A stretch of DNA of 64,000 nt from Methanocella arvoryzae MRE50 (GTDB lineage Archaea; Halobacteriota; Methanocellia; Methanocellales; Methanocellaceae), in NCBI RefSeq assembly GCF_000063445.1, contig NC_009464.1, positions 1 through 64,000 on the forward strand. The letters are read 5' to 3'. Under the pieces are notes generated by a model. It had not been told where the DNA came from, did not search any database, and was given only the letters and a program-made list of their open reading frames with translations. Positions 53,976 to 64,000 of the stretch are shown one piece after another (position 1 is the first letter of the stretch; each line of letters opens with the position of its first letter). The position numbers and the translations under genes were made by a program.

Positions 53976-54422
53976 TCACCTTTTGGACCAGCTGGCCCCG
54001 AACTGTATTCTGTACAGAACCTCCCGGTCCTCTTCAGACATCTCGTCCTCAGAGCAGAAGACGTACAGGCAGGTCGGGCTACGGAACTCTCTCGGCAATA
54101 CGCACCCTATGCCAGGCCGCATGAAGCCTGTCTGAGCGTCGAAGTACCCGGCCATTGCCCGCACTGAAGCCTCGTCCAGCGCCGGCCCCTCCTTGCGCCA
54201 GTAGCCGAAACCGACCGCGCACTGGTGGCAGCACCCGCCTCCGCCGAGCAGCATGCCCTTGCAGATGCCGTTGCGGAAATCGCAGTCGTAGTCGATAGTT
54301 TCGGTGCGCTTTGCCAGCTTTTTATAAGTTTCAAGATCATAGCCCCTGACACGGGCTTCTTCTGTGGGCACGATCTGGATATTCAGCTCTTTAAGGTAGA
54401 CTAAAAGCTCCTCGTAGTCCAT
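53976..54422 (-). CDS. Cysteine-rich uncharacterised protein
   Basis: 148 residues. Cysteines are clustered: DYDCDFRNGIC near residues 45-55, GGGGCCHQCAVGFGYW near 61-76, and C at 107, 118, 122. The GGGGCCHQC stretch could bind a metal or iron-sulfur cluster. No signal peptide. No family recognised. It is in its own unit with ATG 54422, upstream in transcription from the thermosome terminator region but separated from it by over 100 bp of promoter sequence. Confidence 0.6.
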   Translation of the reverse strand: MDYEELLVYLKELNIQIVPTEEARVRGYDLETYKKLAKRTETIDYDCDFRNGICKGMLLGGGGCCHQCAVGFGYWRKEGPALDEASVRAMAGYFDAQTGFMRPGIGCVLPREFRSPTCLYVFCSEDEMSEEDREVLYRIQFGASWSKR

Positions 54423-54511
54423 TAGCCTTCACCTGCTTGAATGACGTCGCAGGCTAAGAGGGGCTTTTTCAAATATTAAGAAATCGCTAGCTGCCCTGAC
54501 AACTTCTGAGT

Positions 54512-54874
54512 TCACCGGGAGCTGTTTTTAAAGATGATGTAATATTTCCCGAAGTTCCCGTCTGCGGCCTGGAAGGGCTTTACTACAGACCTGCTGAAGA
54601 TATCCTCCGGATCGGCGTCCGGAAAGAGCTTCGCAACTCGCGCCTTATCGTACTCAGGATCATGCACCAGCGTGCCCACAGGTATCACGTGGGTAGTGAT
54701 GTTCTCGTCGATTCTGTACCCGTGAGAGCACTGCTCTTCGATGATCTGCTGCAAAAGAGAGTATGGATTGCTGATTCGGAACTTGGATAATACGGCTATG
54801 CTGAGTATTGTCTTCTCCTGGTCAGCAGACGGTACTTTTGGTCTATTGCCGAAGATATTATCGAGGATTCCCAT
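54512..54874 (-). CDS. Small uncharacterised protein
   Basis: 120 residues, soluble, no family recognised. The N-terminal MGILDNIFGNRPK suggests an amphipathic segment; the middle has mixed helices, and the C-terminus (GNFGKYYIIFKN) is a beta stretch. It is co-oriented with the cysteine-rich gene, 89 bp upstream of it. Function unknown. Confidence 0.55.
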   Translation of the reverse strand: MGILDNIFGNRPKVPSADQEKTILSIAVLSKFRISNPYSLLQQIIEEQCSHGYRIDENITTHVIPVGTLVHDPEYDKARVAKLFPDADPEDIFSRSVVKPFQAADGNFGKYYIIFKNSSR

Positions 54875-55173
54875 ACTATCACCAGCTGTTAGATCAACTT
54901 CTCCTGATCCCCTGCCTCAACCCCCCGAGGATTATTTTGTCCTCATTGCCAGTTCCGGGGCAAATTTGCCCTAATTTTATTTAATAAGTAGTAGTACTTA
55001 AATCTATTCTTGATAAAACGGTGAATTTATGGTCCTCTGGCATTTAATCGGCTGGATATCGACCGGTTACCGTTATGCAGGAGGGCTGCCGATAAAATTG
55101 TTCTCGAAAAACTTTAAATAATCAGAAAGGCATAAAGCGGCACGAACAAGTGCCCTTCGGCAAATCTCAGAAC
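54875..55173. other. Intergenic region before tRNA-Gln
   Basis: About 300 bp without a gene. It contains AT-rich TATA-like stretches (aataagtagtagtacttaaat near 54988-55003 and actttaaata at 55109-55118). The latter, 57 bp before the tRNA, is a plausible promoter for tRNA-Gln. Confidence 0.35.
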
Positions 55174-55246
55174 AGTCCCATGGGGTAGAGGTCAATCCTG
55201 CTGGACTTTGGATCCGGCGACACCGGTTCGAATCCGGTTGGGACTA
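55174..55246 (+). tRNA. tRNA-Gln (TTG)
   Basis: Acceptor stem AGTCCCA/TGGGACT, D-arm with GGGTAGAGG, anticodon stem CTGGA/TCCGG with loop CTTTGGA (anticodon TTG), T-arm ACCGG-TTCGAAT-CCGGT and discriminator A. It reads CAA and CAG. An isoprenoid-synthase-like gene starts 15 bp downstream. Confidence 0.94.
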
Positions 55247-55261
55247 TCAGTTTTAAAAATC

Positions 55262-56323
55262 ATGGTTTTGTCTCTGATGCAAGGCTCGAGTCTCGAACCC
55301 GTCTCAACCTTAAATGAATCTCCCTCCGGAGTCAAATCAGCAGTCGCTGCCATCGGCAAGCATCAGGACAGTGTCCCGGTCCCGGAAAAGCCCGTCAAAT
55401 TATCCTTGTATCTCCGTACCGCCTTAGACATGGCCGGCTATGTGGTAGAACTCCCTCTCAGATGGAAAACCATGGACCTCAAGCCCTACCTGCCTATTTA
55501 CACGAAGATCGGCTACGGAATTATGCTGAATGCCATTACCGACCTGTGGCTTTTGACATCCGGCGTCGACCGGAAAAAGTTTGACCCCGGCTCTATAGTC
55601 GTCGTAAAGCATTTCATCGGCTACATGAACACGATGGACGATTACCTCGACGCGCCCGAAAACAAGCACAAGCAGCGCCCTTCTTTACGTTTTACAAAAG
55701 GTGACGAATTGTGGGAGCGGAGAAAAGAGATGTTCGGGTCTATCGAGCACTACGACGTTCCCAGACAAAAGAAAATTAAGCGTGCGATCTGCGCATCTGC
55801 CGACAGGCTATTGTCTGCTTTTGTCCGCTTCAGAAGCCTTAATGCTATCGGCTTCGACGACGCGCTCCATATCCGGGAGGAGACTGCCGGGGAGCTGTGC
55901 AGGGTGACGGCCGAGCTGTTCAACGTGATCCACGACGTCCCTTCGGACCGGGCAAGAGCTGTCGAAACCGCTTTCTGGAACGTCGGCATGGTCCTGCAGG
56001 TGCACGATGACGTCGGGGACATCTGTAAGGATGATCGAGAAGGGTTTGGCGAGAACATGGTGTTGCAGCTTCTCAACCAGCGGCCAGAGGAGAAAGCCCG
56101 GCTGATGGGGGCTATAGCACATAAGAAAAATTGTCCGTTTAGTAAGATAGAGCGTTATGCACCAGAGACTGCGAGGGCGGCCAGAGAGCTACAGGACCGC
56201 TACATGGCAGCAATTCCCGATACAGGCGGGTTCGAAAGGATCAGGTGCTTACTTGACCTTACCGTATCTATGCGCGGGAGATCTGCCGCACTGCGCTCGA
56301 TAATAGATAAAATGGAGCTGTAG
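55262..56323 (+). CDS. Isoprenoid-synthase-like protein with two Asp-rich motifs
   Basis: 353 residues from ATG 55262; an open frame begins earlier but overlaps the tRNA, so 55262 or ATG 55277 is used. Two Asp-rich motifs, DDYLD (126-130) and DDVGD (249-253, context VLQVHDDVGDICKDD), are spaced as in trans-prenyl diphosphate and terpene synthases, where they hold magnesium-diphosphate. The protein is all-helical. The surrounding residues do not match standard GGPP synthases, so the substrate and even the activity are uncertain. It is 15 bp behind tRNA-Gln, probably in the same transcript. Confidence 0.6.
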   Translation: MVLSLMQGSSLEPVSTLNESPSGVKSAVAAIGKHQDSVPVPEKPVKLSLYLRTALDMAGYVVELPLRWKTMDLKPYLPIYTKIGYGIMLNAITDLWLLTSGVDRKKFDPGSIVVVKHFIGYMNTMDDYLDAPENKHKQRPSLRFTKGDELWERRKEMFGSIEHYDVPRQKKIKRAICASADRLLSAFVRFRSLNAIGFDDALHIREETAGELCRVTAELFNVIHDVPSDRARAVETAFWNVGMVLQVHDDVGDICKDDREGFGENMVLQLLNQRPEEKARLMGAIAHKKNCPFSKIERYAPETARAARELQDRYMAAIPDTGGFERIRCLLDLTVSMRGRSAALRSIIDKMEL

Positions 56324-56505
56324 CGCGAGTGGATACAACAATATATAATTCCGCTTTATATTCGAGTACGCACGTTCAATTCGCCGTCTTCGTGGATCTT
56401 TTTTATGTCCGCTTATGACAAGAGTGACCCTGCAATATTAGAAAAAACGGGAATGCCAGGGGTGTGTGAGCCTCCAGAGCTTCTGGCATCCGGAATGGTG
56501 GCAAT

Positions 56506-56685
56506 ATGGTATCAGTAAAAGATGTATCCAGAGCGATGAGGGGGATGTGTTTTCCCGCAGATAAGAAAACGTGCGTCGAGTGGGCAAAAGCACACAATGC
56601 AACCGCAGAAGTAGTACAGGCGCTGGAGCATATGCCGGCAAACCGGTTCAGAAATATGTCTGAAATCTGGTATATGATCGGTTAG
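56506..56685 (+). CDS. Small DUF2795 family protein
   Basis: 59-residue protein, MVSVKDVSRAMRGMCFPADK and onward, with the DUF2795 features: an N-terminal helix, FPADK, and the closing MPANRFRNMSEIWYMIG. It is not usually spotted because of its length. ATG 56506 is in a purine-rich context (ggcaat). The fold is small and helical; function unknown. The remaining 56324-56505 and 56686-56926 hold no other clear gene, only TATA-like stretches near 56817-56842 for the next gene. Confidence 0.65.
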   Translation: MVSVKDVSRAMRGMCFPADKKTCVEWAKAHNATAEVVQALEHMPANRFRNMSEIWYMIG

Positions 56686-56926
56686 GTAAGCGACCATCCT
56701 CCAGTACTTTTTTTGAATAACCTACTCCTGATTCCGGTTTTATCTCGTGCGGTTCGAGGCCCTATTGTATCTAGCGATCGTATGTACAAGTGCTCAGTCC
56801 TTTACCTGCTGTAAATATGTATTTGTCCCTGTTTATAAGTGCTGAACTCAGAATCAGGCCGTATTTGCTGCTTTTTACGTCTGTTAATTTGAATATTCGG
56901 CTCATCGAAAAGGCTAGGGGATTGAA

Positions 56927-58138
56927 ATGCCGATTAAGACCGTGAATGATATCGATGTCACCTCAAAAAGAGTCCTCCTGAGAGTGGACTTTAACGTGCC
57001 GATGGAGAAGAGCGGAGGGGGTATCAGGGACGATACTCGTATCCGGGTTTGCCTGCCGACGATCAGGTACCTGCTTGATCATCATGCAAAAGTCATTATC
57101 TGCTCTCATTTAGGACGGCCAAAGGGTAAGATCGACGAAACATTAAGGATGACACCAGTGGCCAGGCGATTATCTGAGCTACTGGGTCAGCCTGTCAAGT
57201 CCTTGAAAGAGTGCGTCGGCCCCGAAGTCGAGAAAGTAGTTTCCTCCATGAATGATGGAGACGTAGTGCTCCTGGAAAATTTGCGGTTCTACCCGGGGGA
57301 GGAGAAGAATGATCCCGAGTTCGCAAAAGGCCTGGCAAGGCTGGCCGATGTTTTCGTCAACGACGCGTTCGGAGCGAGCCACAGGGCTCACGCCTCAGTC
57401 GTGGGTGTCACAAACTATCTCCCGTCGGTCGCCGGTTTCCTCATGGAAAAGGAAGTGACTTCCCTCGGCGGCCTGCTCGAGAAGCCTGAAAGGCCCTTTG
57501 CCGCCGTGATCGGCGGAGCAAAAGTCAGCGATAAGCTGGACGTACTGGATAATATTGTTCCAGACGTTGATGTGCTGATCATCGGCGGAGGCATGACTGC
57601 CACCTTCCTGAAGAGCCGGGGCAACCGGGTCGGCAAGTCACTGGTAGAGGACGACAAGATACAATACGTAAGAGATCTGTCCGAACAGGCGAAGTCCCAC
57701 GACGTCAGGCTACTATTGCCGACAGATGTGGTCGTTTCGCCCAGCCTGGACGGCACCTCCGAGTCCAGGACTGTATCAGTCAGTGACATACCTGACGGCT
57801 GGTTCATCGGGGATATCGGCCCGCAGACTATCGCAGAGTACACCGGTGCGTTAAGTGGCTGTAAAACGGTCTTCTGGAATGGGCCAATGGGCGTATTCGA
57901 AGTAGAGCAGTTTGCTACGGGGACCAGAGAAATTGCCAGCACGATCGCAAGGCTCGACGCAGTCAAAGTAGTCGGCGGGGGCTCTACTGTCGAGGCCGTG
58001 ACCCGGCTGGGCGTGGCAGATCAGATGACACATGTCTCCACCGGCGGCGGAGCCACTCTCGAGTTCATCTCGGGCAAGCAGTTGCCGGGCGTCAAAGCGC
58101 TGGAGGAAAACCGGCTGGAAGTACCTGCTGTCAGATAA
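56927..58138 (+). CDS. pgk: Phosphoglycerate kinase
   Basis: 403 residues. The N-terminal substrate-binding block RVDFNVPMEKSGG (about 19-31) and HLGRPKG, the hinge region, and the C-terminal nucleotide site (GGAKVSDKLDVL, GGGSTVEAVT) are all present. It converts 1,3-bisphosphoglycerate and ADP to 3-phosphoglycerate and ATP, or the reverse for gluconeogenesis. AGGGGATTGAA precedes the ATG. It stands alone. Confidence 0.96.
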   Translation: MPIKTVNDIDVTSKRVLLRVDFNVPMEKSGGGIRDDTRIRVCLPTIRYLLDHHAKVIICSHLGRPKGKIDETLRMTPVARRLSELLGQPVKSLKECVGPEVEKVVSSMNDGDVVLLENLRFYPGEEKNDPEFAKGLARLADVFVNDAFGASHRAHASVVGVTNYLPSVAGFLMEKEVTSLGGLLEKPERPFAAVIGGAKVSDKLDVLDNIVPDVDVLIIGGGMTATFLKSRGNRVGKSLVEDDKIQYVRDLSEQAKSHDVRLLLPTDVVVSPSLDGTSESRTVSVSDIPDGWFIGDIGPQTIAEYTGALSGCKTVFWNGPMGVFEVEQFATGTREIASTIARLDAVKVVGGGSTVEAVTRLGVADQMTHVSTGGGATLEFISGKQLPGVKALEENRLEVPAVR

Positions 58139-58299
58139 ATAGATCACCAGGCCATCTGCCTGCCTACCTGCATGCCGGGCAGCAACCGCGGATCCGGCCC
58201 TGTCATCTTTTCTTTATGTGATCCTGTTAATCGATTACCTCAATATCGCCCGCTATACATCACTAGTTTTAAGTATCATCATGTTCATCATAGTACCCG

Positions 58300-59499
58300 A
58301 TGAGCGGTAACTCCTCAGCGGTGTTGAACATTTCTTATATGGCCGGCATCGAGCAGCAGCTCATGGTGGCTACGGGGTTCAGCAAACTATATACAGATAT
58401 ACTGCTGGCGGTTATACTGCTACTCGCTTCAGTCTTGCTGGCAAAAGCGGTCAATTATTTCATAAAGAGCATAGCGCCTTATATAGTCTCGAAGACTGAG
58501 ACGACGCTGGATGACGAGATCATCGAGGCCGTTAATGGTCCTCTGCAATATTTCATCATCGTAATGGGCATCTATGTCTCACTTCTCACCATCGAATCCC
58601 TCTCAGGGGTGTTTAATTTCTGGATCGACAGGCTGTTGCTCGTGGCCGTAATCTTCATAGCAGCCTATCTGTTAGCCAACCTCGTCAACGCGCTGCTCAA
58701 CTGGTACCGTAATGACATCGCCCCGAAAACTGACTCTGACTTCGATGACTCTTTCATACCGTTCCTGCAAAAAGTCGCGTGGGCTGTCATTTCCATCATC
58801 TCCCTGCTCGTGGCGCTGGAGCAGCTGCACATCATCGAAATAACTCCTCTGATCACCGGGCTGGGAATCGTCGGAGTAGCTGTAGCTCTTGCCGCCAAAG
58901 AGCTTTTATCCAACTTTTTCGGCTCAGTAGCCATCCTCAGCGACAGGCCTTACAAAGTAGGCGACCGGGTGAACATCCAGGGCACAGACTCGGGCGACGT
59001 CATCGAGATAGGCCTACGGAGCACTAAAATACGCACAGTCGATAACCGGTTTATCATCGTGCCTAACACCAAAATCGCCAACTCCAGAGTAATGAACTAT
59101 TCACAGCCGGACACCCATTCTGTCTTCGAGATAAAAGTAGGCGTATCCTACGATGCCGACATCGGCAAGGCGGCGAAAATCATGAAAGAGATCGCCCTTG
59201 CAACTGATGGTGTACTGGGGGATCCTGCACCCACCGTACACGTGACCGAGCTGGGTGACTCCGCGGTAAAGCTGTTGATGCTGGTGCCTGTCGAAAACTT
59301 CCGAAAAAGCTGGGAAATCCCTGACAGGATCTACCGCCAGATACTCAAGCAGTTCGAAGCCGAGGGCATAGAGATCCCCTACCCGATACAGACAGTACTG
59401 GTCAAAAAAGTCCAGCCGGACCGCAGCGTACAACCGCAGACTGTCAGCCCCATCCAACAAAATGCTGATATTGCAATAATCAATAAAGGTGAAAATTAA
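58300..59499 (+). CDS. MscS-family mechanosensitive channel
   Basis: 399 residues. Three to four transmembrane helices occupy about residues 30-210 (the pore-lining helix being VGVAVALAAKELLSNFFGS), then the beta domain with IRTVDNRFIIVPNTKIANSRVMNYS and the C-terminal alpha/beta domain. It opens under membrane stretch to release solutes. A Gln/Asn-rich tail follows the family domain. ATG 58300 is chosen as the first in frame. Confidence 0.92.
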   Translation: MSGNSSAVLNISYMAGIEQQLMVATGFSKLYTDILLAVILLLASVLLAKAVNYFIKSIAPYIVSKTETTLDDEIIEAVNGPLQYFIIVMGIYVSLLTIESLSGVFNFWIDRLLLVAVIFIAAYLLANLVNALLNWYRNDIAPKTDSDFDDSFIPFLQKVAWAVISIISLLVALEQLHIIEITPLITGLGIVGVAVALAAKELLSNFFGSVAILSDRPYKVGDRVNIQGTDSGDVIEIGLRSTKIRTVDNRFIIVPNTKIANSRVMNYSQPDTHSVFEIKVGVSYDADIGKAAKIMKEIALATDGVLGDPAPTVHVTELGDSAVKLLMLVPVENFRKSWEIPDRIYRQILKQFEAEGIEIPYPIQTVLVKKVQPDRSVQPQTVSPIQQNADIAIINKGEN

Positions 59500-59512
59500 C
59501 TGCTTATTACCT

Positions 59513-60106
59513 TTATTCAAGAGCAGCTTTCCTGATAACCTTAAAATCGGACTCTAGAGCATCCTTGAGCTTTCTGTTATAGATGATGGCGGCAGGGTGG
59601 TAGGTGATCACCACAGTCCTGTCTTCGTGCTTGAAAGGCTTGCCGTGCTCTTCCCCCATGACAACTTTGCGGCCGAGGTACGATTCGGCTGCTGTCTTGC
59701 CGAGCAGGACGACGACTTTTGGGGATATGACTTCGAGCTGCTTTTTCAGGTAGACGCTGCAGGCTTCTATCTCGTCTTTCTTCGGGACCCTGTTTTCCGG
59801 CGGCCGACACTTTACTACGTTGGCTATGTATACGTCATCTCTGCGGATGCCGGCGCTTTCCAGTACCAGGTTGAGCACCTTGCCAGCCGCACCGACGAAA
59901 GGCTTGCCCTGCTTATCCTCGTTCCTCCCGGGGGCTTCGCCGATCAGCATGATCCTGGCATCGAGGGGCCCTGATCCGATGACTACGTTGGTCCTCGAAA
60001 GTGATAGATCACATCTTGGACATTTGAGCACATCGTCTATCCTGCACAGGATCTCCGTCATCCGGTCCATCTCTTCTCCAATCTCCTGTCTTTTGCTTTC
60101 CCGCAA
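59513..60106 (-). CDS. udg: Uracil-DNA glycosylase, family 4
   Basis: 197 residues. Iron-sulfur cysteines C29, C32, C100 and C116, motif A GEAPGRNED (56-64), and the later HPAAI block (HPAAIIYN) mark family 4 UDG, which removes uracil from DNA in base excision repair. The first 20 residues are a short N-terminal extension before CRIDDVLKCP. It converges on the MscS gene with 13 bp between stops and lies 15 bp downstream of the DUF2070 gene in transcription. Confidence 0.93.
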   Translation of the reverse strand: MRESKRQEIGEEMDRMTEILCRIDDVLKCPRCDLSLSRTNVVIGSGPLDARIMLIGEAPGRNEDKQGKPFVGAAGKVLNLVLESAGIRRDDVYIANVVKCRPPENRVPKKDEIEACSVYLKKQLEVISPKVVVLLGKTAAESYLGRKVVMGEEHGKPFKHEDRTVVITYHPAAIIYNRKLKDALESDFKVIRKAALE

Positions 60107-60120
60107 TAAATATTGAGGCT

Positions 60121-61908
60121 CTAAAACTTGACGAAGGTGAGGATCAGAACGGTCAGCGAGAGCGCGGCCACGATGACTGCAGCCGCAAAGGCGCCTGCCA
60201 TGGCGACCATGGCGTTAGCCGTGCTGGCGAGCTTGGCGATCTTGTGCGAGCCGAATACACGGATATCCTCCGCTATCTCGATCTCCATGCCCACGCTGAC
60301 TGGCTCGAGGTCTGAGATAGCTTTGTCTACAAGTTCGGCGATCTTTGCTATCAGCACGTCGCAGTCAAGGTTCTGGCCTACATAGTTGACTCCCGAGAGA
60401 GTGTTGACGACGTGAGTATCCGTAGTCATGACCTCAGCCTCGTCCACCGGCAATTTTTCTATGATCTTTTCCCGCAGCCCGGTGATCATGTTGTTGCCGT
60501 CTATGACGATGTAGGCGGTCCGCTGGCCCTGGGTTTCGACGATCGCCACACAGATGCCCAGGTCTCCCATGCCCTCCAGCCTCGTGCATATGGGCGGCGA
60601 ACTGGCCACTCCCACCCGGAGCTTATCGACATTAGACGATAACAGGTGTTTAGAAGTATTGGCTGCTGCCCGGATGATGTTGTACGAGTCCCGGGTTCCG
60701 GGCTCGATAGGGGTTGCCAGGGGCTCCATACAGTTGTGAGCGTCGATGATGGTCGCATACCTCGACCCGGCTACTCTGGCTTCTGCCATCGCGGTGAAGC
60801 CTACCGAGAACTCTATATCATCCGTAGTCATAGGCGCCCGGGTCGATACCAGGAAGACCGAGTCCCCGAACCGCTGGCCGAGGACATTGCAGTCGCCTAC
60901 GCTCTTCCTGATCGACTTCGTGGCAGTCTCGGTGTATGTGATCCGGGCGAGCGCCTTTTTGGCAGCATCTATGACCTTTACCGATTCTTCTGTCGTAACG
61001 GGATTAAAGTCGTGGGATGCCGTTCCGTGCGGTACCAGCACAACATTTCCCGGGAAAGCGGCCGCGATAACCGCAGGCAGGTTGCCTCCGCCTATTTCAC
61101 CCATGGGGCCCGGGTGGACGTATGGCGTAATGATAATGGCCTTGTTCGTGCCGTCGGCACGCTTAAAGGCTACTACACTGACGGGAGCGTCGATGGACTC
61201 GCCGATCTTCTCGAAGAAATCCTCCATGTCCTGGGAGCCTTCGGTGATGTGGGCGATGAAATCCTGGACAAAGTCGAAGCTGCTGACACCGAACGATTTG
61301 ACCATGGGATAGTCTACGTACTTGACGAAGACGACTGCAGCGGATACGAAAATGACGCTCGAAACCATCAGGTCGAAGGCGACCTCAAAATCCTTGACAT
61401 AGTATACCAGCAGAACCCCGCCGAGCAGCGTCTGGATAGAGGCCGGTATCAGCACTTTTGGCAGGCTGTTGATGGAGATTCCCAGCAGGATCAGTATCCG
61501 CAGTGCGAAGATCAGCGACATGCTTAGCGCTAAGCCAGTGTAATTATAGGGCGTGCTCGTGACGTAAGAGTACAGGCCCATGATCAGGCTGGCGACGCAT
61601 ACGACGACCAGGGAAATCAGGGCAATCAACATGGACCGGTTATAGGTCATGTTTCTGCCGAAGACCTCCGATATAGGCTTGGTCACGATAGCCGCAAGTA
61701 CTGCCGGTACGCCGAGGAGCACGATACCCTGGAAAACGTCAGCCTTCCAGGAGCCCGGGAACGATACTGCTCCGACAATTACTGCCAGGAGGACTATTGC
61801 GGCAAACGATAGTTTCCAGTCCGGGGCCTCGAAGATATAGTCAGCATAGCTTGCCAGCTGCTCTTCCATTCCTTTCCGGCGTTTTTTCTTTCGCCTGAGC
61901 CGCGTCAC
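60121..61908 (-). CDS. DUF2070 membrane protein
   Basis: 595 residues of the archaeal DUF2070 family. An N-terminal KKKRRK basic stretch precedes about six transmembrane helices (about 35-215), then a long soluble domain with PYVHPGPMGEIGGGNLPAVIA and HGTASHDFNPVT, and a C-terminal hydrophobic helix (about 570-592). It is thought to be a membrane enzyme or transporter; function unknown. Its stop is 15 bp from the UDG start. Confidence 0.85.
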   Translation of the reverse strand: MTRLRRKKKRRKGMEEQLASYADYIFEAPDWKLSFAAIVLLAVIVGAVSFPGSWKADVFQGIVLLGVPAVLAAIVTKPISEVFGRNMTYNRSMLIALISLVVVCVASLIMGLYSYVTSTPYNYTGLALSMSLIFALRILILLGISINSLPKVLIPASIQTLLGGVLLVYYVKDFEVAFDLMVSSVIFVSAAVVFVKYVDYPMVKSFGVSSFDFVQDFIAHITEGSQDMEDFFEKIGESIDAPVSVVAFKRADGTNKAIIITPYVHPGPMGEIGGGNLPAVIAAAFPGNVVLVPHGTASHDFNPVTTEESVKVIDAAKKALARITYTETATKSIRKSVGDCNVLGQRFGDSVFLVSTRAPMTTDDIEFSVGFTAMAEARVAGSRYATIIDAHNCMEPLATPIEPGTRDSYNIIRAAANTSKHLLSSNVDKLRVGVASSPPICTRLEGMGDLGICVAIVETQGQRTAYIVIDGNNMITGLREKIIEKLPVDEAEVMTTDTHVVNTLSGVNYVGQNLDCDVLIAKIAELVDKAISDLEPVSVGMEIEIAEDIRVFGSHKIAKLASTANAMVAMAGAFAAAVIVAALSLTVLILTFVKF

Positions 61909-61995
61909 GCGCTGGGCGATGGCAGAACGTGAAAAGTATCCGTTGGCCGTACCAGACTCGCTCCTGCTTAGTTCACTCTATTCTATTATTCTGTT

Positions 61996-62340
61996 CTACT
62001 CTGCTTCGGTGATGTCTACCACCTTCAGGGGCACGTCTCTGAGCGCTTTGCCAATACCCTTACGGGCGATGCGCTCTGCGTGCTCCTTTGACTCAGCGTT
62101 GAACACTTTCATCTCAAGGAGGAGCCCTACTATGCCTGTGCCGGCAACTACGAACACGCTGTCGAAAGGCTCTCCACAAAAGGGGCAGAACGTGCCGCCG
62201 ACCTCCACTTCTACAAAGTCCATCTTAGCTGCGTTAAGCCTCTTTCCAGCCTCTGAAATAGCTACGCTCATCGCGTCGTCGACGGATTTGGCGTCCTTCA
62301 CAATCCAGGCCGCCTCAAGGACTACTTTATAATTTGGCAT
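61996..62340 (-). CDS. UPF0212 protein (DUF555)
   Basis: 114 residues. The conserved N-terminus [17 protein letters not shown], the CPFCG zinc-like pair (C52, C55), and [22 protein letters not shown] identify the archaeal UPF0212 family. Soluble and of unknown function. It is upstream of the DUF2070 gene in transcription, separated by about 85 bp. Confidence 0.93.
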
Positions 62341-62511
62341 CTTTATACCTCACTATTACTTTCCAACCAGTCTCGCACCAAAAATACGGGCGCCTCTGTG
62401 ATCCTATTCATTGGATATGAGTTGTACGCTCTACGATGATTTAATACATCGCATACTGACTTTGATCGGGGATATAGAAACATGGTCAGGGTATTTAATT
62501 TTTCCGGGACT

Positions 62512-62793
62512 CTACGCTGCGAACAGCTCTCTGTTTGTCACTGCGAATACCCCCAGGCGCACACCCGCGTCCAGCCACGCGTGACCATAGCTGAAACAGA
62601 CGAGAGCGTTGACCGGGTCGTTCTCCTTTATGAAGTTGCTGCCGTCGTCGTAATAGCACCTGGCCATGTTCAGGTAGTCGTCGGCTACCCTGTTCATGTG
62701 CGTGCCTTCCGGGGTGGTCTTTTTCACGTCGTCGAGAGCTGCCCGGAGCAGTTTCTGGTATCTTCCGACTTTTTCCGTAAGATCCGCAGCCAT
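62512..62793 (-). CDS. DUF357 family protein
   Basis: 93 residues, helical hairpins typical of archaeal DUF357 (YQKLLRAALDDVKK and ALVCFSYGHAWLDAGVRLGVF). Its start lies 1-2 nt after the HerA-like gene stop on the minus strand, so the two are co-transcribed. A HEPN- or TPR-like role is speculative. Confidence 0.85.
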   Translation of the reverse strand: MAADLTEKVGRYQKLLRAALDDVKKTTPEGTHMNRVADDYLNMARCYYDDGSNFIKENDPVNALVCFSYGHAWLDAGVRLGVFAVTNRELFAA

Positions 62794-62794
62794 C

Positions 62795-64000
62795 CTATCG
62801 CTTCCCGAACATCCTGTGGAACAGGCTTTCAGTTATGCTTTTTTTCGGGGGCTGCTCCACTAATACCGCAGCGGCTTCCGGCTTCTCCTGAGCCGGGGCA
62901 GGCTCCTCGACGGGCTCCTCGATGGGCACTTCCTCTTCCGAGACTTCTGCCGATAGTCCGCCGTGCCTGCTTCTCCTGACCCTTACCTGGACCATGACTG
63001 GCATGGGGATATCCGGGTTGACCAGCAATGCCACGCCGGGCGGAAGTCTCTTGATCTCTTCCTCAAGTTCAGAGCTGATTCCTTCGAGGCTCTTAGTGAT
63101 CGCTTTCAGGTCGTTGGGGTTGGTGACTCTCATGATCACCTGGGTGCTGCACTGGGATAGCACGTTCTTGTCGACCTTGGCGGGACGCTGGGAGACGATG
63201 AGGAGGCCCATGCCGAACTTCCGGCCCTCGGAGGCGATAGTCCTCAGGACGTCACTGCTTGTCGTTTTCTGGAATCCTCTCTCCGGACAGAAATTGTGGG
63301 CTTCCTCTACAACCACAATCCCTGCGGGGACGGTGCCTGCTTTTCTTGCCTCGAACAGCATGGACAGGAGCCTGGCTACGATGACCTGCTGGACATCCGG
63401 GTTCACTCCTTTCATATCTATGATGGCTGCCCTGCCCTTTGCGAACAACTCTTCCAGCGGCGTAGGCTTGTCGGCCAGAAACTCTGCCGTCGCGAGCGGC
63501 TCGAGCTTGTTGATGACCGCCCACTTCATGTTGCTCTTCATCGACCCGATCTCACGTAGCACGTCGGCCAGCGTATAGTTCATCCGATCGTTCCTGATCT
63601 CTCCCACGGCCTCGTAGATCAGGCCGATTTCGGAAGCGCTGAGGTCTCCGCCCATATAGTCGATGATCTCACCCGGCTTCAGGTTGCGACCGTTGAGGCG
63701 GAGCACTTTATCCGCGTAGTCGTTGACCTTCAGATTCGCAGGGGTATAGATGGTCACATTGTCGTATCCTCTGGCCTCGACCCCAAACCGCTGGCATAGT
63801 TCCTCTATGTCACAGTCATCGTTCGCCTGCTTAAGCGAGGCGTACTCCCCGTGGGGATCGATGATTAGGAGCGGGATCTCTTTTTCGAGCATCTCTTCCA
63901 TGATCACGGCTGCCGTATACGACTTTCCGCTGCCTGTCATGGCTAGGATACTGCAGTGCTTCTGGACCAGCTTATTCCGGTCGACCATCACTTGCAGGTT
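62795..64000 (-). CDS. HerA-like ATPase, 5'-truncated by window edge
   Basis: At least 400 residues of a HerA/FtsK-like hexameric ATPase. Walker A MTGSGKSYTA follows NKLVQKHCSILA, Walker B is GIVVVEEAHNF, and further FtsK-like motifs include LLIVSQRPAKVDKNVLSQCSTQVIMR. A Pro/Glu-rich linker (VPIEEPVEEPAPAQEKPEA) precedes the C-terminus. The frame is open to the window end (residues NLQ precede the first visible GTG), so the N-terminal HAS-barrel is outside. HerA acts with NurA in DNA end resection, but no nurA is in the window. Confidence 0.88.
   Translation of the reverse strand, partial: NLQVMVDRNKLVQKHCSILAMTGSGKSYTAAVIMEEMLEKEIPLLIIDPHGEYASLKQANDDCDIEELCQRFGVEARGYDNVTIYTPANLKVNDYADKVLRLNGRNLKPGEIIDYMGGDLSASEIGLIYEAVGEIRNDRMNYTLADVLREIGSMKSNMKWAVINKLEPLATAEFLADKPTPLEELFAKGRAAIIDMKGVNPDVQQVIVARLLSMLFEARKAGTVPAGIVVVEEAHNFCPERGFQKTTSSDVLRTIASEGRKFGMGLLIVSQRPAKVDKNVLSQCSTQVIMRVTNPNDLKAITKSLEGISSELEEEIKRLPPGVALLVNPDIPMPVMVQVRVRRSRHGGLSAEVSEEEVPIEEPVEEPAPAQEKPEAAAVLVEQPPKKSITESLFHRMFGKR

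Follow-up and report, generated by a model that had tools for sequence, protein, structure and literature searches.

A divergent class I isoprenoid-synthase-like protein of Methanocella arvoryzae MRE50 is a candidate terpene synthase

Introduction

The stretch of DNA analyzed here (the window) comprises bases 1–64000 of the single-contig genome of Methanocella arvoryzae MRE50, which is 3,179,916 bases long. Just behind a tRNA-Gln gene it encodes a 353-residue protein with two Asp-rich motifs, and the locus raises two questions: which chemistry such a protein could perform, and whether the neighboring tRNA gene has anything to do with it. An initial annotation, made from the sequence, proposed a terpene cyclase or a novel class I synthase of archaeal lipid or signalling metabolism.

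Gene model and conservation

The length of the protein and its distance from the tRNA gene had been annotated correctly, with exactly 15 bp separating the end of tRNA-Gln from the ATG at 55262 (Table 1). A full-length ortholog with 62% identity was found in Methanocella sp. PtaU1.Bin125. It starts at the residue matching Met6 (ATG 55277), which is an equally good alternative start, and the true start may thus be at 55277, 30 bp after the tRNA. Substitutions between the two orthologs numbered 100, 75 and 151 at codon positions 1, 2 and 3, respectively, with a dN of 0.28 and a dS of 1.18. As an ortholog exists and dN/dS is about 0.23, the gene is real and under purifying selection.

Table 1. Coordinates of the tRNA gene, the protein-coding gene and selected segments of its product within the window.
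Feature	Position	Strand	Remarks
tRNA-Gln (anticodon TTG)	55174-55246	+	ARAGORN; Rfam RF00005, 58.7 bits; neighbor, no part in function
Gene for the 353-aa class I isoprenoid-synthase-like protein	55262-56323 (stop included; coding 55262-56320)	+	ORF, ortholog, purifying selection
Residues 1-45, poorly conserved tail	55262-55396	+	9/45 identical to ortholog; low pLDDT
First Asp-rich motif DDYLD, residues 126-130, predicted helix end	55637-55651	+	
Residues 133-137, ENKHK, in the register of canonical ETRRG	55658-55672	+	
Residues 205-210, RxxTxG, at the canonical KT motif / pyrophosphate-contact region	55874-55891	+	
Gln246 and second Asp-rich motif DDVGD (residues 249-253)	55997-56020	+	
C-terminal 53 residues, best conserved stretch between orthologs	56162-56320	+	44/53 identical

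The gene was present in two of the four genomes of the class and absent from the other two. No close relatives beyond the Methanocella pair were found in the 393 genomes sampled from the phylum or among viral contigs, plasmids and phages. The wider scan of genome contigs used exact peptide patterns, which distant relatives in other phyla would escape. Of the matches with E-values of 0.002 to 0.008 in other Halobacteriota (L005-L008), which were considered as family members, the two inspected (L005 and L006) were rejected as ordinary synthases.

Genomic neighborhood

The sister species keeps the order of an exonuclease-like protein, tRNA-Val, a 148-aa ORF (in three copies) and tRNA-Gln, and has a different gene after tRNA-Gln. 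The ortholog lies on a separate contig, where an acyl-CoA synthetase gene ends 32 bp before it and no tRNA is near. As ortholog and tRNA-Gln are apart in the sister species, neither the tRNA nor any other neighbor is conserved with the gene. The adjacency to the tRNA, which the initial annotation had pointed out, therefore appears to be incidental and meaningless. The tRNA was also considered as an integration site and rejected, since no repeat of at least 20 bp in the window region 54000-64000 involved it and the adjacency is not conserved.

The GC content of the gene (53.2%, compared with 54.7% for the window) and its GC3, which resembles that of its neighbors, gave no sign of horizontal transfer in base composition, and no donor was found; a transfer phylogeny is out of reach with two sequences. 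Across the two Methanocella loci no biosynthetic neighbors were conserved with the gene.

Three further features of the neighborhood were recorded. The 148-aa protein encoded at window positions 53976-54422 (-), which is the one present as three tandem copies in the sister species, had no Pfam match. Downstream of the gene, positions 56506-56685 (+) encode a 59-aa DUF2795 protein (PF11387, E=1.6e-13). In one relative (L032:3085-3195, -) a short insert, probably an archaeal tRNA intron, interrupts tRNA-Gln in its anticodon region, and the gene was missed by ARAGORN.

Homology to trans-isoprenyl diphosphate synthases

The sole Pfam match of the protein was to PF00348 (polyprenyl synthetase; E=9e-4, residues 204-259), with a score of 18.9 bits against a gathering cut-off of 27; the ortholog matched the same family at E=0.0026. 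A canonical profile was built from 33 archaeal synthases out of 35 loci, selected for the presence of GKxxR and DDxxD-RR. With this profile the protein scored 16.5 bits, the first of 137 frames in the window, and the ortholog 9.0 bits, compared with at most 4.0 bits for residue shuffles, at most 11.1 bits for block shuffles and 2.5 bits for the best other frame of the window. True but distant members of the superfamily scored lower on the same profile, with at most 1.2 bits for archaeal SQS/PSY proteins and at most 2.4 bits for haloarchaeal PF19086 proteins. Profile-profile comparison to the canonical synthases by hhalign gave P=1e-5 over residues 70-338, and an earlier setting gave P=5.6e-4 over residues 124-339. 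The best sequence match in the PDB was the Pyrococcus GGPP synthase 1wy0, with E-values (0.12 and 0.21) that are non-significant alone, and in the profile search both Asp motifs aligned in register with 1wy0. Judged by these profiles, the 353-aa protein is remotely homologous to trans-isoprenyl diphosphate synthases. The earlier remark that it has little else in common with GGPP synthase holds for pairwise identity to the canonical proteins (15-21%) and fails for profiles, which do detect the homology.

Predicted structure

An AlphaFold2 model computed from the two orthologs only had a pLDDT of 37 and was used for secondary structure and for unguided PDB matches. Of the 50 best PDB matches of this model almost all were prenyl diphosphate synthases, the top one at E=8e-3. 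For a second model three canonical sequences from viral contigs were added to the alignment. This model reached a pLDDT of 59 and a pTM of 0.60, with three of the five models near 38. Its best PDB match had an E-value of 4e-5, 1wy0 and archaeal GGPP synthases were near the top, and all 33 PDB chains at E <0.001 were prenyl-synthase-like by title; as canonical sequences were part of its alignment, these matches are partly forced. The initial annotation had named structure prediction as a check of the fold, and both models were all-alpha with prenyl synthases as best PDB matches, at low to moderate confidence. The predicted secondary structure also agrees with the description of the protein as helical. 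In both models the Asp motifs were placed at the ends of two long helices (residues 110-130 and 228-252).

Asp-rich motifs and the putative active site

The two Asp-rich motifs that had been noticed at the outset are real and of the DDxxD type. Both are found in both orthologs, and their spacing of 123 residues is just below the range of 125-151 in the 33 canonical archaeal prenyl synthases. By chance, two DDxxD motifs at a spacing of 100-170 occurred in 22 of 20,000 shuffles. The catalytic Gln246 before the second motif is intact in both Methanocella proteins.

These motifs bear on the idea that the protein belongs to a heteromeric prenyl diphosphate synthase as its non-catalytic or regulatory subunit. 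Subunits of this kind share the fold and are divergent, and the low identity to canonical proteins would fit; yet they can be without Asp motifs, as in an insect example (PMC10960109), whereas here both motifs are invariant across two species at 62% identity. Moreover, only two of the four class genomes have the gene, yet all four have three other PF00348 proteins. We regard a regulatory role as quite improbable.

The contact positions of human FPPS are presumably equivalent to GKxxR, RR, KT and Q-DDxxD of the archaeal proteins. In human FPPS, IPP has direct contacts with Lys57, Arg60 and Arg113; Mg2+ on both DDxxD motifs, together with Arg112, Lys200 and Lys257, binds the allylic diphosphate; and the cation is stabilized by Lys200, Thr201 and Gln240 (PMC7815940). 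Between residue 40 and the first motif, no KxxR equivalent to GKxxR was present in either ortholog. In both, Lys135 takes the place of the first Arg of RR, nine residues from the first Asp as is the canonical Arg, and the second Arg is replaced by His136 in the window protein and by Pro in the ortholog (ENKHK and ENKPS, compared with ETRRG). Alignment of the KT position is uncertain by one residue, with KT in the ortholog and ET (Glu207) in the window protein, and Arg205 is nearby in both; retention of the Lys after the second motif is not clear-cut. By this alignment both orthologs lack three predicted direct IPP contacts, the Lys and Arg of GKxxR plus the second Arg of RR, and retain most of the allylic side. 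As the N-terminal alignment to the canonical proteins is uncertain, a displaced basic IPP site elsewhere in the protein is possible.

With such a site the protein would be an unorthodox trans-prenyl diphosphate synthase that binds IPP through basic residues supplied from other positions or by a partner subunit. This explanation would agree with two Asp motifs of the DDxxD type found in prenyl synthases, with Lys135 in place of the first Arg, and with a closest profile and closest structures that are those of prenyl synthases. GKxxR and RR are, however, present in 33 of the 35 loci behind the canonical set (which was selected for them) and missing from both orthologs, and the genome already has three ordinary PF00348 proteins. 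On this evidence an unorthodox prenyl synthase seems rather unlikely.

A candidate IDS-like terpene synthase

The three other PF00348 proteins of the genome (L009-L011) carry the usual first motif and RR, and chain elongation is therefore already covered. The IPP residues are lost in the pattern of insect and fungal IDS-like enzymes, and together with these three proteins this favors a terpene synthase. On balance, the gene product is probably, in our moderately confident judgment, a class I terpene synthase-like enzyme that would ionize an allylic diphosphate, perhaps GGPP. It would be an enzyme of the class I terpenoid-synthase fold, derived from or sister to the trans-isoprenyl diphosphate synthases, whose active site still binds metal and allylic diphosphate and no longer IPP. 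Mg2+ on DDYLD and DDVGD would bind a prenyl diphosphate such as GGPP or FPP by its diphosphate group, possibly assisted by Lys135 and a basic residue near position 205. Departure of the diphosphate would leave a carbocation that is not trapped by IPP and may instead be quenched by internal cyclization, proton loss or water, yielding a terpene or terpene alcohol. We infer catalytic activity, substrate, product and biological role of the 353-aa protein; archaeal membranes are built from GGPP, and substrate and product are guesses from archaeal metabolism.

There are precedents for such a change. In a fungal GGPP synthase a single change of the Arg of GKxxR abolished GGPPS activity and created terpene synthase activity (PMC7484799). 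A sandfly enzyme, in which nine of 15 IPP residues were substituted, was then shown to make a diterpene alcohol from GGPP (PMC12376265). The combination by which IDS-like terpene synthases are recognized, namely substituted IPP-motif residues with FARM and SARM kept (PMC12376265), was found in the present protein. Against a terpene synthase stands the second motif, which is DDxxD as in prenyl synthases and not the usual NSE/DTE triad. The NSE triad is not absolutely required (PMC7484799), so that DDxxD in its place is compatible with a terpene synthase. Glu207 at the KT position, the doubtful Lys after the second motif and the absence of conserved biosynthetic neighbors also speak against this function.

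A prenyltransferase that joins an allylic diphosphate to a non-IPP acceptor or couples two allylic diphosphates (irregular or head-to-head) should have an identical metal site and likewise lack the IPP pocket. Class I enzymes are able to change acceptor, with terpene cyclases acting as aromatic prenyltransferases (PMC7414894), and the genome has no SQS/PSY (PF00494) protein. No neighboring gene points to an acceptor, though, and similarity to archaeal SQS/PSY proteins was absent (-2.0 and -0.5 bits), which makes this explanation unlikely. A prenyl diphosphate phosphatase, or an enzyme of other chemistry on the same fold, is also conceivable because the anatomy of the site indicates a capacity for ionization only and not the fate of the cation. 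Nothing specific argues against this, and simple capture of water would in effect make the protein a terpene alcohol synthase; we consider this explanation very improbable.

Of the function first proposed for the locus, the assignment to class I isoprenoid-synthase-like proteins other than a plain GGPP synthase is borne out by profiles, structure comparison and loss of the predicted IPP contacts. A terpene cyclase would be the most likely function, and the proposed link to archaeal lipid or signalling metabolism was unsupported. The terpene synthase prediction is simple to check with one protein and a substrate panel.

As a separate observation, the third PF00348 protein of the genome (L011:1417-2286, +; genome positions 1779016-1779573) has a normal first motif and RR and a degenerate second motif, DDLIEF. 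It may serve as a subunit or as a synthase with an unusual specificity.

Possible wider family

Two divergent proteins that resemble class I isoprenoid synthases and have neither GKxxR nor RRG were encountered elsewhere, one in a related archaeal MAG (L102:1127-2224, -) and one on the Fusobacterium varium plasmid AP017969.1 (L106:5854-6762, +). The plasmid protein, annotated as hypothetical and encoded near autotransporter genes, matched L102 at E=4e-17. Both share with the Methanocella pair GMxLQ-DDxxDxxxD, an ExK after and a YG before the first motif, and C-terminal GF and RG; they differ from it by an identity of about 20-26% and by very long branches. A profile of L102 and L106 gave 21.2 and 17.0 bits for the Methanocella pair, compared with at most 10.9 bits for canonical proteins, and block shuffles of the pair reached 17.5 bits. 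In a tree, the Methanocella pair, L102 and L106 were joined at 85/93, again with very long branches, and the Methanocella pair fell outside all canonical synthases, including the genome's own. The profile comparison ranked second, as one of 40 random canonical two-sequence sets scored higher, and special kinship of the Methanocella pair with the two proteins is therefore a suggestion and a lead.

It is a tentative and rather doubtful proposition that the four proteins represent a family, without a name so far, of archaeal and bacterial IDS-like terpene synthases that lost IPP binding independently of the known fungal, insect and plant-type enzymes. For its part, the Methanocella enzyme, if it is a prenyl synthase that lost its IPP site, would be a further such conversion outside eukaryotes and would suggest that a methanogen makes a terpenoid so far unstudied. 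According to MARTS-DB, which cites a preprint on terpenoid biosynthesis in archaea, archaeal terpene synthases are rare (PMC12797696); as a kind they are thus not new.

Comparison with known families

With canonical trans-isoprenyl diphosphate synthases (PF00348; archaeal GGPPS such as 1wy0) the protein shares the predicted fold, the two DDxxD motifs in register, the Gln before the second motif and the order of helices. It differs from them in the missing GKxxR and second Arg of RR, in its low identity and in its sub-cut-off Pfam score. The IDS-like terpene synthases of fungi and insects (PMC7484799, PMC12376265, PMC13143122) likewise combine homology to prenyl synthases, loss of IPP contacts and Asp-rich motifs, whereas the window protein is archaeal, far more diverged from canonical synthases and known from sequence alone.

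Class I terpene synthases with the NSE triad (PF19086, including the haloarchaeal L065-L078) would share the proposed class I chemistry, and the ortholog had a weak match to PF19086 (E=0.11); the second motif differs, being DDxxDxxxD here and not NSE/DTE. Membership in PF19086 was rejected, as the window protein had no match to it and no profile similarity to the haloarchaeal set. The class IB terpene synthases YtpB and BalTS (PF10776) carry the motifs DYLDNLxD and DY(F,L,W)IDxxED (PMC7839719), and the first motif of the window protein contains DYLD. Membership in this family was likewise rejected, with no profile match in the protein or the genome and a different second motif. SQS/PSY (PF00494) gave no profile match and was also rejected.

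Two other families of the phylum were observed in the course of this comparison. The haloarchaeal L065-L078 form a family over or near the PF19086 cut-off, with matches in 19 of 393 genomes and a conserved, NSE-triad-like RIGNW..(T/S)WERE stretch. L098-L101, from one taxonomic family of the phylum, form a divergent PF00348 group of about 65-75 bits, in which KRWD stands where GKxxR is expected and REG where RRG is expected.
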